From Rhodococcus triatomae BKS 15-14 (lineage in GTDB: Bacteria > Actinomycetota > Actinomycetes > Mycobacteriales > Mycobacteriaceae), in NCBI GenBank assembly GCA_000341795.1, contig AODO01000041.1, positions 1 to 41,587 on the forward strand: a DNA stretch of 41,587 nucleotides. The letters are read 5' to 3'. This document shows positions 36,861 to 40,641 of this stretch, one piece after another. The stretch's first letter is position 1, and every line of letters begins with the position of its first letter. The notes under the pieces were generated by a model. It was not told where the DNA came from, did not search any database, and was given only the letters and a program-made list of their open reading frames with translations. Position numbers and translations under genes: made by a program.

Positions 36861-37079
36861 TCACTTCCGCCTGCCGGGAGCGACCACCAGGACCACGCCG
36901 ACGACGACGGCGGCCGCGATGAACAGCCACTTCGCGTGGCCTCCCGTGACGGCGTCGATGCCGACGGGCCCCACGAACGCCCACAGGCTGACGAGGAGGG
37001 CGGCCAGTCCTGCGAGGAGCAGGCCCGGTGACGGTCGGCGACGGGCGGTGGTGGTGTCGGTGTCGGTGTTCTCAGCCAC
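36861..37079 (-). CDS. Small two-helix membrane protein in the Esr-like module
   Basis: Seventy-two residues: a polar Thr/Asp-rich N-terminus, two membrane helices (about 19-37 and 50-66) and a basic GRRK end. The GTG start at 37079 overlaps the stop of the preceding PspC gene by 8 bases, so it is translated from the same message. No family recognised; by context it belongs to the envelope-stress module. Confidence 0.68.
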   Translation of the reverse strand: MAENTDTDTTTARRRPSPGLLLAGLAALLVSLWAFVGPVGIDAVTGGHAKWLFIAAAVVVGVVLVVAPGRRK

Positions 37080-38496
37080 GGTGAACCTCCAGATTTCCCA
37101 TGCGGCCGTTCATGTTCAGGGTCAGCACCGGACCGTCGGTGCCGTCCGGGCCGCCGGTCAGCCCTTCGGGCAGGCACTGTGCGTCGCCCACCGTCATCGA
37201 GCAGTGGTTGACGACGTTCATGTTCTCGGGAACCAGAACCGTGAACGACCCCATGCGCAGGTCGACGTCGACGGTCTTGTTCTCGGTCAGTTCGAGTGCA
37301 CTCAGGTCCAGCGTGAACTCTCCGAACCGGCCCGTGTACTCCGATTGGATGTCGGCCGCGGTCGCGGGCGTCCAGGTACGGGTGCCGACGTTCTCCGAGT
37401 CCCAGTCGATCGGCCCCACCAGGGACGCGAGAACGACGAAACCGGTGAGTGGCCCGGTGACGACCAGCAGGCCGTACCCGCGTCGCAGGAAGGCCCCGAC
37501 GACGAGTCCGATTCCGATCACGGCGAGTCCGACGGCGCCGATCCGGGCGGGCGACAACCACTCCCATCCGGTCGCGGCGGCGACGGCCCACGCGGCGGCG
37601 GTCGCGAGGATGGCCAGACCCAGCACCACCGACGTCAGGCGGGACTTCGGGCGTTCCGTGCGCGCTGTGGGCGGCTTCGGGGCGGGTGCGGGTTCGGGCA
37701 GATCCCACGCGAACGGTGCGACACCGAGAGGGTCCCAGGCAGGCGGGGCGGTGACATCCGTGGGCGCTCCGGCGTCGGCACCGATGCGGCCCGAGGCCTC
37801 CGGGTCGCCCGACGGCGGTGCCGTCGCGGTGTTCGGTGTCTGCGTTGCGGCCGCGACATCCGATGCCTGCTCCGCTGCTGCTGCACCCGGCGTCGCCTCG
37901 GCCGGAGCCGCACCGAAGGGGGACGGCTCGTAGGTCTTCGGCAGCGTCGCGAACACACCCGGCGAGGCGTAGGCAGAGGTGCCGTACCCGGCGGACGGGG
38001 GGTAGCCGGGCGGTGGCGTCGTGATGCCGGCCCAGGGATCCGAGTCGTGCAGAGGTGCCGGGGGGTTCGGGCGACGCTGGAACAGCAACCAGAGCCCGCC
38101 GAGCATCAGGGCCAGACTGAACAGCCCGGAACCACCGAAGCTCACGCCCAGTGGACCGAGCGTGCTGGCCGCGATCATGAGTGCGACCACCAGGACGATC
38201 GTCTTCGTGCTCGATTCGGAGCTCTGGCCGCGACCGAGCAGGGACTCCGCCGCGGAGGTGTCGTCGCCGGCGCGGGGGAGCAGCAACCATGCGGCGAGAT
38301 AGAGGACGATGCCGGCGCCGCCGAAGATGGTCGAGACGACGAACGCGATCCGGATCAGGACGGGGTCGACGTCGTAGCGGCGGCCGACACCGGCGGCCAC
38401 ACCGGCGATCGGGCCCCGGCGCGGGAGTCGCACGGGCCGGGTTCGCCACAACTGGTTCAGCTGCTCGGAGAAGGTCGCTGTGCTCATGCCGTCCAT
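37072..38496 (-). CDS. PspC-domain membrane regulator (EsrI-like)
   Basis: The 474-residue protein has an N-terminal PspC domain (about residues 25-75: RRGPIAGVAAGVGRRYDVDPVLIRIAFVVSTIFGGAGIVLYLAAWLLLP), further membrane helices, a long Pro/Ala/Thr-rich cytosolic linker (about 145-270), another membrane bundle, and a C-terminal domain like the LiaF/DUF2154 fold (VDLRMGSFTVLVPENMNVVNHC and a final LNMNGRMGNLEVHRG). It is divergent from a PspC-domain histidine kinase, the arrangement of EsrI-EsrSR in Corynebacterium glutamicum, where EsrI holds the kinase off. ATG 38496 has GAGG six bases upstream; ATG 38487 is an alternative. Confidence 0.82.
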   Translation of the reverse strand: MDGMSTATFSEQLNQLWRTRPVRLPRRGPIAGVAAGVGRRYDVDPVLIRIAFVVSTIFGGAGIVLYLAAWLLLPRAGDDTSAAESLLGRGQSSESSTKTIVLVVALMIAASTLGPLGVSFGGSGLFSLALMLGGLWLLFQRRPNPPAPLHDSDPWAGITTPPPGYPPSAGYGTSAYASPGVFATLPKTYEPSPFGAAPAEATPGAAAAEQASDVAAATQTPNTATAPPSGDPEASGRIGADAGAPTDVTAPPAWDPLGVAPFAWDLPEPAPAPKPPTARTERPKSRLTSVVLGLAILATAAAWAVAAATGWEWLSPARIGAVGLAVIGIGLVVGAFLRRGYGLLVVTGPLTGFVVLASLVGPIDWDSENVGTRTWTPATAADIQSEYTGRFGEFTLDLSALELTENKTVDVDLRMGSFTVLVPENMNVVNHCSMTVGDAQCLPEGLTGGPDGTDGPVLTLNMNGRMGNLEVHRG

Positions 38497-38523
38497 CGTG
38501 GGCCTCGTGCGTCCGCCACCGCA

Positions 38524-38540
38524 TCAGGGATCGACCCTGA
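38524..38540. promoter_or_regulatory. Inverted repeat, candidate EsrR-like response regulator box 1
   Basis: TCAGGG-ATCGA-CCCTGA is a perfect 6-bp inverted repeat with A and T extending it by one pair. It is 28 bases upstream of the EsrI-like start. The same arms recur in box 2. Confidence 0.65.
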
Positions 38541-38567
38541 TATTTCGGGTGCGGCGGGCGGTCGGAG

Positions 38568-38584
38568 TCAGGGTTGTGCCCTGA
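38568..38584. promoter_or_regulatory. Inverted repeat, candidate EsrR-like response regulator box 2
   Basis: TCAGGG-TTGTG-CCCTGA has the same arms and 5-base spacer as box 1, and its centre is 44 bases away, about four helical turns. It is 36 bases before the kinase start. Identical arms with unrelated spacers are what selection on a dimer-binding site leaves. Confidence 0.65.
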
Positions 38585-38620
38585 TGCGCGCGGCCGCGGC
38601 CGCGTGCCACCATCGACGGT

Positions 38621-39934
38621 GTGCAGCCGATCCCACGTGCCCAGACGCCGGTGACGGCCCCCGCGCCGCCGTCGATCGAGGGTCCACCTCGGCTCGAGCG
38701 GCGAGTCGGTGGCCGGGTCATCGGTGGTGTCGCGGGTGGGCTCGCCGATCACCTCGGAGTCGACGTGTTCAAGGTCCGCGTGGCGTTCGTGCTGCTCGGT
38801 GCTCTCGCAGGTGCGGGTATCACCGCGTACGGCCTGCTGTGGATCTTCACGCCACCCGGCACCGACACCGAGCGTCCCAGTCGCGCCGAACGTCAGCGCG
38901 CGCTCGGTCTCGCCGTCCTCGGCCTCGCGCTGGCCGCGGTGCTGGGGATTCTGGCGAGCGGTACGGCCGCCGAGGTGCTGGTCCCCGTCATCGTCGTCGC
39001 GGTCGGTGCGGCACTGGTGTGGCGGGAGTACGACTCCGACGGGCCCCGCTCGGTGTTCGGGCTGCCGCAGAGTCCGACGGTCCTCACGTGGGCGCGGATC
39101 CTCGGCGGCATTTCCTTGATAGTCCTCGGTCTCGGTGTGGTGGTTCTCGCCCAGGTCGATCTCGCGTCGCTGCGTTCGTCGCTCCTGGCGGTGGTGGTCA
39201 CCCTCGTCGGGATCGGCCTCCTGACGGTGCCGCTGTGGCTGCGGATGTGGCGCGATCTCGGGCGCGAACGCGCCGCCCGCATCCGGAACGAGGAACGCGA
39301 GGAGATCGCCTCGCACCTGCACGACTCGGTGCTCCAGACGTTGGCATTGATCCAGAAGCAGGCCGACTCGCCCCTGCAGGTGCAACGCCTCGCCCGCAGT
39401 CAGGAACGGGAGCTGAGGAAGTGGCTGTTCGGTGAGGGCGAGGCCGCGCACGCGAGCCTCGCGGAGGCGTTGCGCACCATCGCAGGCGAGGTCGAGGACC
39501 AGTACGGGGTGGCGGTCCAGACCGTCACCGTCGGCGACGTCCGGCTGGACCTTCCCGAGACCGAGTCGGGGATCACCACGGAGGCGGTCACCGCGGTTCT
39601 CGGTGCCACTCGCGAGGCGCTGGTCAACGCCGCGAAGCATTCCGGCGAGTCGAGCGTCGACGTCTTCGCGGAGGCGGGCACCGCCGAGCTGAACGTCTTC
39701 GTCCGGGATCGTGGTGTCGGATTCGACGTCGACGCGATCGCCGGCGACCGGCAGGGGTTGGCGAGGTCGATCCGGGCGCGGGTGGAGCGTCGCGGGGGCG
39801 AGGTCGCCGTCGACTCCACCGTGGGACGGGGCACCGAGATCCGGATCACGATGCCACTGGGTCCCGAGGAGGGCGACGAGGGTGGCCTAGAGTGGTCGGA
39901 GCAGTCGGCCCGACCCAAGGAGCAGCCCCGGTGA
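38621..39934 (+). CDS. PspC-domain sensor histidine kinase (EsrS-like)
   Basis: The 437-residue kinase has an N-terminal PspC domain (RRVGGRVIGGVAGGLADHLGVDVFKVRVAFVLLG, about 27-80), a further set of membrane helices to about 205, a HisKA_3 dimerisation helix with phospho-acceptor H234 in EEIASHLHDSVLQ, and a HATPase domain (ATREALVNAAKHSG and DRGVGFD, GRGTEIRITMP). It belongs to the LiaS/NarX-type kinases that sense envelope damage. Start is GTG at 38621. The stop overlaps the response regulator start. Confidence 0.9.
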   Translation: MQPIPRAQTPVTAPAPPSIEGPPRLERRVGGRVIGGVAGGLADHLGVDVFKVRVAFVLLGALAGAGITAYGLLWIFTPPGTDTERPSRAERQRALGLAVLGLALAAVLGILASGTAAEVLVPVIVVAVGAALVWREYDSDGPRSVFGLPQSPTVLTWARILGGISLIVLGLGVVVLAQVDLASLRSSLLAVVVTLVGIGLLTVPLWLRMWRDLGRERAARIRNEEREEIASHLHDSVLQTLALIQKQADSPLQVQRLARSQERELRKWLFGEGEAAHASLAEALRTIAGEVEDQYGVAVQTVTVGDVRLDLPETESGITTEAVTAVLGATREALVNAAKHSGESSVDVFAEAGTAELNVFVRDRGVGFDVDAIAGDRQGLARSIRARVERRGGEVAVDSTVGRGTEIRITMPLGPEEGDEGGLEWSEQSARPKEQPR

Positions 39935-40641
39935 CGTCCCCCGGTAGCAACCACGCCGTGCGAGGCCAGGGGGATCACCCCGAATCCGGTTCTCCGGACA
40001 CCACTTTCCGAGTGTTTCTCGTCGACGACCACGCCGTCTTCCGGTCGGGTGTTCGGGCCGAGCTGGCGACGGAGCCGGACATCGTGGTGGTGGGTGAGGC
40101 CGGTGGTGTCGCCGAGGCGATCGCCGGAATCGACGCCACCGCCCCGGACGTGGTTCTGCTCGACGTCCACATGCCGGACGGGGGTGGCGTCGCGGTCCTC
40201 ACGGGCATCGCGGCCGGACCGGTGTGCCTGGCGCTCAGCGTGTCCGATGCCGCGGAGGACGTCATCGCGGTGATCCGGGCCGGTGCCCGGGGGTACGTCA
40301 CCAAGACGATCTCGGGCCGCGAACTCGCGGACGGTGTCCGCCGGGTGGCCGGCGGCGACGCGGTGTTCAGCCCCCGCCTCGCCGGGTTCGTGCTGGACTC
40401 GTTCACCGGTCGATCCGCGGTTCCGGAGCCTGCACTCGACCCGGAGCTCGACTCGCTGACGCCCCGTGAACTGGAGGTGCTGCGCCTGCTCGCCCGCGGA
40501 TACACCTATCGGGAGATCGCCGAGACACTGGTGATCTCGGTGAAGACCGTCGAGACGCACGCCTCGAACGTGCTGCGGAAGACCCAGCAGTCCAATCGGA
40601 ACGCCCTCACCCGGTGGGCCCATCGCCGCCGGATCGAGTGA
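39931..40641 (+). CDS. LuxR/NarL-type response regulator (EsrR-like)
   Basis: The 236-residue protein has a receiver domain with the acidic pair D32-D33 (LVDDHAVFRSG), phospho-acceptor D78 in VVLLDVHMPDG, and a C-terminal LuxR-type helix-turn-helix (LTPRELEVLRLLARGYTYREIAETLVISVKTVETHASNVLRK). A 20-residue polar N-terminal extension precedes the receiver. The GTG at 39931 overlaps the kinase stop as GTGA and has AAGGAG at 39917-39922; an upstream start at 39892 is less likely. By context it binds the two inverted repeats between the divergent genes. Confidence 0.92.
   Translation: MTSPGSNHAVRGQGDHPESGSPDTTFRVFLVDDHAVFRSGVRAELATEPDIVVVGEAGGVAEAIAGIDATAPDVVLLDVHMPDGGGVAVLTGIAAGPVCLALSVSDAAEDVIAVIRAGARGYVTKTISGRELADGVRRVAGGDAVFSPRLAGFVLDSFTGRSAVPEPALDPELDSLTPRELEVLRLLARGYTYREIAETLVISVKTVETHASNVLRKTQQSNRNALTRWAHRRRIE

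Follow-up and report, generated by a model that had tools for sequence, protein, structure and literature searches.

How a divergent envelope-stress locus might drive both its own amplification and its own shut-off is the question raised by a short gap in the DNA of Rhodococcus triatomae BKS 15-14, within the 41,587-nucleotide stretch analysed here as a whole (contig AODO01000041.1, hereafter the window). A PspC/LiaF-type membrane protein is encoded there on the minus strand opposite a PspC histidine kinase and NarL/LuxR-type regulator on the plus strand, and two inverted repeats with the same arms lie between them. The minus-strand gene (37072–38487) specifies an EsrI-like inhibitor of 471 residues with an N-terminal PspC domain (63.5 bits against Pfam) and a LiaF-like C-terminal domain scoring 20.9 bits, under the LiaF-like_C cut-off of 29. 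The plus-strand genes are that of an EsrS-like sensor kinase (38621–39934, GTG start), whose N-terminal PspC (60.9 bits) and HATPase_c (34.9 bits) domains both exceed their cut-offs and whose HisKA_3-like match is weak (20.8 bits against a cut-off of 24), and, directly downstream and overlapping it by 4 nt, that of an EsrR-like response regulator (39931–40641), with receiver and LuxR/GerE DNA-binding domains (Response_reg and GerE both above the Pfam cut-off). The original prediction had named these genes as an Esr-like set of PspC/LiaF inhibitor, PspC kinase and LuxR-type regulator, and this identification holds, with the inhibitor start corrected to 38487. A 72-residue minus-strand ORF with a GTG start and hydrophobic stretches (36861–37079, by ORF arithmetic) overlaps the 3' end of the inhibitor gene, is probably part of the same operon, and is possibly a LiaI-like partner. 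Past the end of that operon, the product of ORF 36335–36826 matches the sigma-70 region 4 model of Pfam and not that of region 2, and could be a sigma factor of a degenerate or unusual type.

The first repeat, site 1 (ATCAGGG-ATCGA-CCCTGAT, 38523–38541), has seven-base arms (ATCAGGG/CCCTGAT) around the six-base-arm core TCAGGG-ATCGA-CCCTGA (38524–38540), and its centre lies about 45 bp upstream of the inhibitor start. Site 2 (TCAGGG-TTGTG-CCCTGAT, 38568–38585; core TCAGGG-TTGTG-CCCTGA, 38568–38584) is centred about 45 bp upstream of the kinase start. Re-reading the sequence thus returned both predicted copies of TCAGGG-N5-CCCTGA where they had been placed, with different spacers and with centres 44 bp apart. 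The exact pattern is found at two places in the whole genome (5,822,735 bases), both within this 62-bp stretch of the gap, while a reversed pattern of the same composition has no exact place in the same 5,822,735 bases. Allowing up to two mismatches makes the pattern common, with 206 places and 145 for its reversed control, so that a match has to be exact or nearly so to carry information. The search of this genome and its relatives that had been proposed along with the repeats comes to two exact places here and an exact match in 90 of 251 genomes drawn from the host family, the reversed control being non-zero in 16 of the 251.

Measured outward from the repeats, the order of elements is identical on both strands: a CCCTGAT half-site, 22 nt, a CANNAT hexamer, 7 nt and a start codon. 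The hexamers, predicted as -10 elements from the form [CT]ANNAT at 21–22 nt from the half-site, are CACGAT for the inhibitor promoter (38495–38500, minus strand) and CACCAT for the kinase promoter (38608–38613, plus strand), and they look like main-sigma-factor -10 elements with another base in place of the first T. The kinase GTG at 38621 lies 7 nt past its hexamer. For the inhibitor, the upstream ATG at 38496 overlaps the predicted hexamer at 38495–38500, so the start is better placed at 38487, judging by this geometry, where an ATG (38485–38487, minus strand) again lies 7 nt past the hexamer and would begin a leaderless transcript. If the hexamers are indeed -10 elements, both transcripts would be leaderless and the site centres would fall near -45. 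A scan of positions 38400–38700 for a sigma-70-type promoter gave no match, which is weak evidence, since shuffled sequences gave none either. Because either promoter has its predicted -10 element 22 nt away from a palindrome of its own, the arrangement is, on the reading of these distances, one of two mirrored single-site promoters, each palindrome serving its own. The original prediction had envisaged a paired dimer site serving both directions and thereby making a self-amplifying, self-limiting circuit; a single shared bidirectional site was given up for two mirrored sites once the distances were measured, while the layout fits activation on both sides and the circuit itself is still likely.

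Whether this layout is particular to the window was judged from orthologous gaps. The kinase query found a match in 59 of 61 genomes, and after nine weak or partial matches had been left out, the remaining 50 loci were all turned to one orientation. The layout was scored as CCC(C/T)GAT or CCCGAT followed by [CT]ANNAT, with 19–25 nt allowed between the two, and the same scoring was applied to 100 dinucleotide shuffles. It is present in 27 of the 50 gaps on the kinase side and in 21 of the 50 on the inhibitor side, always with a spacing of 21 or 22 nt, against shuffle means of 0.17 and 0.19 loci and maxima of 1 and 2, respectively. Within the host family the layout occurs on the kinase side in 27 of 33 loci and on the inhibitor side in 17 of 33; in other families the counts are 0 of 17 and 4 of 17. 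The full site, on either strand, is present in 36 of the 50 gaps. A further reading covered 28 named loci from Rhodococcus, Nocardia, Hoyosella, Skermania, Smaragdicoccus, Speluncibacter, Aldersonia, a Nocardiaceae metagenome and one Corynebacterium, using a pattern that allowed 20–23 nt and was looser at one hexamer position; the layout together with an ATG or GTG was found in 27 of the 28 on the kinase side and in 9 of the 28 on the inhibitor side, with spacings of 21–23 nt, a count made without a shuffle control. These loci come partly from the same contigs as the earlier genome set and include near-identical species, and related genomes are not independent counts. Support is thinner on the inhibitor side than on the kinase side. 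As to the genomes lacking the kinase, no match to the query was obtained in 2 of the 61, or in 25 of 242 in the genus of genome G007, and some others gave weak matches only.

An alignment of seven rows, the window included (one of two identical rows was dropped, as were columns with fewer than five letters), places the conservation in the arms: the counted arm columns score 1.00, the two spacers 0.66 and 0.74, and the stretch between the sites 0.69. Thirteen of the 14 arm columns of site 1 are invariant, the A at 38526 being left uncounted since most rows are gapped there, and all 13 of site 2 are invariant in the same rows. The exact strings are kept less strictly: of the six genus members compared, two retain an exact site 1 and four an exact site 2, the non-exact sites having ATCGGG as their left half or a 4-nt spacer. 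Common variants are ATCGGG-N5-CCCTGAT for site 1 and a 4-nt-spacer form for site 2. The proposed comparison of the intergenic region thus finds the arms retained in orthologous gaps, in the layouts and in the invariant columns alike, and supports the repeat as a motif, although exact TCAGGG-N5-CCCTGA is not the conserved unit, as spacers are of 4 or 5 nt and right halves read CCC(C/T)GAT or CCCGAT.

The same observations bear on the notion that the repeats act in RNA, as a hairpin or a pair of terminators, and are not protein sites. The stretch does fold better than its shuffles (z -4.74), as a pair of palindromes would, but both repeats lie upstream of the predicted transcript starts, their position is fixed relative to the hexamer, and forms with 4-nt spacers and unequal arms are conserved. 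A terminator search over the repeats gave no match, and on this ground, together with their position upstream of the predicted starts, the RNA reading was rejected as almost certainly wrong.

That the repeats are binding sites for a protein, and very probably the activator sites of the EsrR orthologue encoded at 39931–40641, is the reading preferred here. Exact palindromes as such do not lead to further promoters of the same build. With one place counted per multi-place genome, 24 of 44 loci holding an exact palindrome in other genomes have neither the kinase nor the inhibitor gene alongside, and the 20 of 45 exact places, in 19 genomes, that were judged to lie outside the kinase gap and read in detail had neither a kinase or inhibitor gene nearby nor [CT]ANNAT or TANNNT at 22 nt. 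For these reasons the palindrome by itself does not mark a regulon, and such places in other genomes were rejected as regulon members. Two of the loci, L116 and L117, are apparently one gene in two genomes, read as coding, with CATGAT at 19 nt. The window's own genome has 13 one-mismatch places (L083–L095), among them L088, which looks like the L116/L117 gene, and L084, where TACGCT stands at 22 nt behind a half-site lacking GAT.

The original prediction had put the arms forward as a regulon motif, and the motif is indeed not limited to the gap: variants of it are found ahead of two other genes, one for a stand-alone PspC protein and one for an ABC transporter. The genome contains three PspC domains, two at the locus and the third in the stand-alone gene (G000:C5:69789-69983), whose promoter reads TCAGGG-CGTCA-CCCGAT, 22 nt, CAAGGT, 6 nt, ATG. 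The sequence TCAGGGNNNNNCCCGATG occurs exactly once in the genome, and the one place is this promoter. In its four closest relatives (L151–L154) the half-sites are CCTGAT, CCGGAT, CCGGAT and CCCGAT, with a [CT]ANNNT hexamer again at 22 nt. Among 41 stand-alone PspC promoters, a set from which L194, L155 and loci resembling the kinase or inhibitor were left out, the full site is present in 14 on either strand and in 11 on the sense strand. A second TCAGGG, a direct repeat, lies 12 bp upstream in the promoter of the window's genome. Several genomes (L183, L184, L189, L197, L199 and others) have additional small PspC genes, some with full or half-sites upstream and others with none, which suggests that this target has been gained and lost among genomes.

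The second promoter emerged from a genome search with one mismatch, as TCAGGG-TGGT-CCCTGATG at G000:C13:104752. Written out in the same order it is TCAGGG-TGGT-CCCTGAT, 22 nt, AAGTAT, upstream of an ABC transporter ATPase gene (G000:C13:104752-105623). The ATPase comes closest to the MacB and LolD models, with both scores under the cut-off, and a long ORF behind it is a permease by its look. The full site is found in 16 of 29 close orthologue promoters, in none of 20 paralogue promoters and in none of 100 shuffles, locus L309 having been left out (contig end) and the paralogue L344 being nearly as close to the query as its orthologue. All 16 orthologue sites are followed by NANN[ACT]T, at 22 nt in 13 and at 23 nt in three, where shuffled downstream letters would give 0.83. 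When the search was widened to 20 more genomes, 16 of them of other families, the best transporter match in each was without the full site (0 of 20). In three from other families (L353, L359, L360) there is a TCAGGG-N3/4-CCCTGA palindrome without the final T, a form seen in none of the 20 paralogues, and these may be diverged forms of the same site. A joint loss of kinase and transporter site was also considered and dropped: four of the 20 genomes are without an orthologue-grade kinase and lack the site, but so do the other 16 (one with a partial kinase match only), and since kinase-bearing genomes among the 20 lack the site too, no conclusion on co-loss can be drawn.

Taken as activator sites, with positive autoregulation and induced inhibition as the outcome, the repeats suggest the following course. 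A dimer of the phosphorylated regulator would bind about 45 bp upstream of each transcription start, beside the would-be -35, and recruit RNA polymerase to a promoter whose -10 (CANNAT) is weak and in which no -35 can be recognised. Site 2 would serve the kinase-regulator operon and site 1, in mirror image, the operon of the PspC/LiaF-type inhibitor, whose role as an inhibitor of the kinase is assumed by analogy with C. glutamicum. Under envelope stress the inhibition would be lifted and the regulator would increase its own amount, so amplifying the response, and newly made inhibitor would then shut the kinase off again and set the limit; the same regulator would also turn on the stand-alone PspC protein and the MacB-like ABC transporter. 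The sites with their rarity and conservation, their constant spacing to a conserved hexamer and the two additional promoters are what was observed; binding, phosphorylation, activation rather than repression, the -10 role of the hexamers and leaderless transcription are what we infer from this arrangement.

The same regulator might instead use the sites as operators through which one promoter or both are repressed, which would make the autoregulation negative. Polymerase can be obstructed by a site near -45, and EsrISR of C. glutamicum is reported to repress its target nlpC during envelope stress (PMC9960051). Against this stands the position of the site, which does not reach the hexamer and is located upstream, equally far from it in four promoters of the genome, and it is this placement that makes activation the better fit. 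Data from C. glutamicum also argue against repression, in so far as esrI is given as up 2.31-fold in one of two secretion-stress conditions, being unchanged in the other (0.80, not significant; PMC6975037). Repression by the regulator is on balance quite improbable.

Activation by the EsrR orthologue must also be weighed against the possibility that another envelope-stress regulator binds the sites and that the neighbouring one is not the actor. Adjacency to a regulator gene is circumstantial, and the genomes without the kinase gave no decision. An inverted repeat with arms of 6–7 bp suits a LuxR-type dimer, however, and the sites are kept beside the gene pair from Rhodococcus to Corynebacterium. 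The further site-bearing promoters are those of genes that the Esr regulon is reported to include, or of genes of such types, and the DNA-binding domain of the regulator is conserved alongside the sites, its KTVETH motif being kept in all 32 orthologues found by pattern among the 50 loci. A different regulator is therefore highly improbable as the actor, and activation by the EsrR orthologue is retained.

From the four promoters and their relatives a single strict rule can be put forward for EsrR-type promoters in Rhodococcus and its relatives, and we consider it likely: TC(A/G)GGG-N4/5-CCC(C/T)GAT, 22 nt, NANNNT (mostly CANNAT), often leaderless and without a -35, which would control a small core regulon of the regulator operon, the inhibitor, the stand-alone PspC protein and, as a conserved effector, the MacB-like ABC transporter. 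The PspC-kinase envelope-stress systems of Rhodococcus, Nocardia and their relatives would thereby gain a regulator site that can be searched for, set in a fixed promoter geometry, which makes their regulons predictable and testable. That amplifier and brake appear to be wired with the same promoter layout leads to the prediction that they are induced jointly, and the conserved ABC transporter is pointed to as part of the envelope-stress response. No published EsrR motif came to light in the literature search, which did not extend to Kleine et al. 2017 (doi 10.1111/mmi.13839), and the site motif itself is not claimed as new; the new element of this analysis is the mirrored site-to-start layout (site, 22 nt, CANNAT, 7 nt, start).

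Among known systems, LiaFSR of Bacillus and its relatives likewise combines a membrane inhibitor bearing a LiaF-type C-terminal domain with a NarL-type kinase and regulator in the service of envelope stress. The LiaF-like domain of the window inhibitor stays under its cut-off of 29 at 20.9 bits. The window kinase differs in carrying a PspC domain and in reaching 38.7 bits with Strep_LiaS, the only LiaS model that it matches, far below the cut-off of 450. A second candidate is MacRS of Streptomyces coelicolor, described as a NarL-type system acting on membrane proteins (PMC9739842). MacS is the nearest curated kinase family by score, yet the 100.2 bits of the window kinase are well under the MacS cut-off of 300. 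The MacR consensus, which we take to be TGAGTACnnGTACTCA, has no match in the gap with up to three mismatches and, in the window, one match with three mismatches, no better than chance. Membership in MacRS was rejected on the MacS score (100.2 against 300 bits) and on the absence of this consensus from the gap.

The closest counterpart is EsrISR of Corynebacterium glutamicum (cg0706, cg0707, cg0709), one mark of which is induction by lipid II-cycle antibiotics, and it could be compared in sequence through genome G331 (a 3,309,401-base contig), in which the kinase frame has 423 residues, the regulator 230 residues and the acceptor aspartate position 52. Since the same values are given for CgtS7 (Cg0707) and CgtR7 (Cg0709), namely 423 and 230 residues and aspartate 52 (PMC3353115), G331 is taken to be C. 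glutamicum. Identity with the window proteins is 65% for the regulator, 45% for the kinase, and 34% and 30% over two segments of the inhibitor. In G331 the kinase side reads TCAGGG-TCTT-CCCTGAT, 23 nt, CATGAT, 7 nt, ATG, and the inhibitor side, read by eye, TCAGGG-CTTT-CCCCCAT, 22 nt, CACAAT, 7 nt, ATG. The 423-residue kinase frame of G331 begins in the inhibitor-side site (L230:2881-2964), whereas by the promoter geometry its start would be at codon 28. Corrected gene starts are therewith suggested, including, if the identity of G331 is true, that of the C. glutamicum kinase, whose present start would lie inside the regulator's own site. A stand-alone PspC gene of G331 near 1.23 Mb has a CCCCGAT half-site upstream and is taken for cg1325, which is listed as an Esr regulon member (PMC6975037). 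Its own locus, heat-shock genes, ABC transporters and rosR are all reported as direct targets of EsrISR, so that autoregulation of this system, of which the window locus is a relative, is already on record (PMC7283102).

The two systems differ in the inhibitor, which has diverged, and in the sites, which are exact palindromes with N5 spacers in the window, whereas the C. glutamicum-like gap has 4-nt spacers and the inhibitor half-site CCCCCAT. They share the divergent gene order, the PspC domain on both kinase and inhibitor, the LuxR-type regulator, and sites standing 22–23 nt from CANNAT on both sides of the gap. The assignment of the locus to the Esr type, as a PspC kinase and LuxR regulator opposite a divergent PspC protein, is thus borne out, with regulator and kinase retaining 65% and 45% identity to their C. 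glutamicum-like counterparts.
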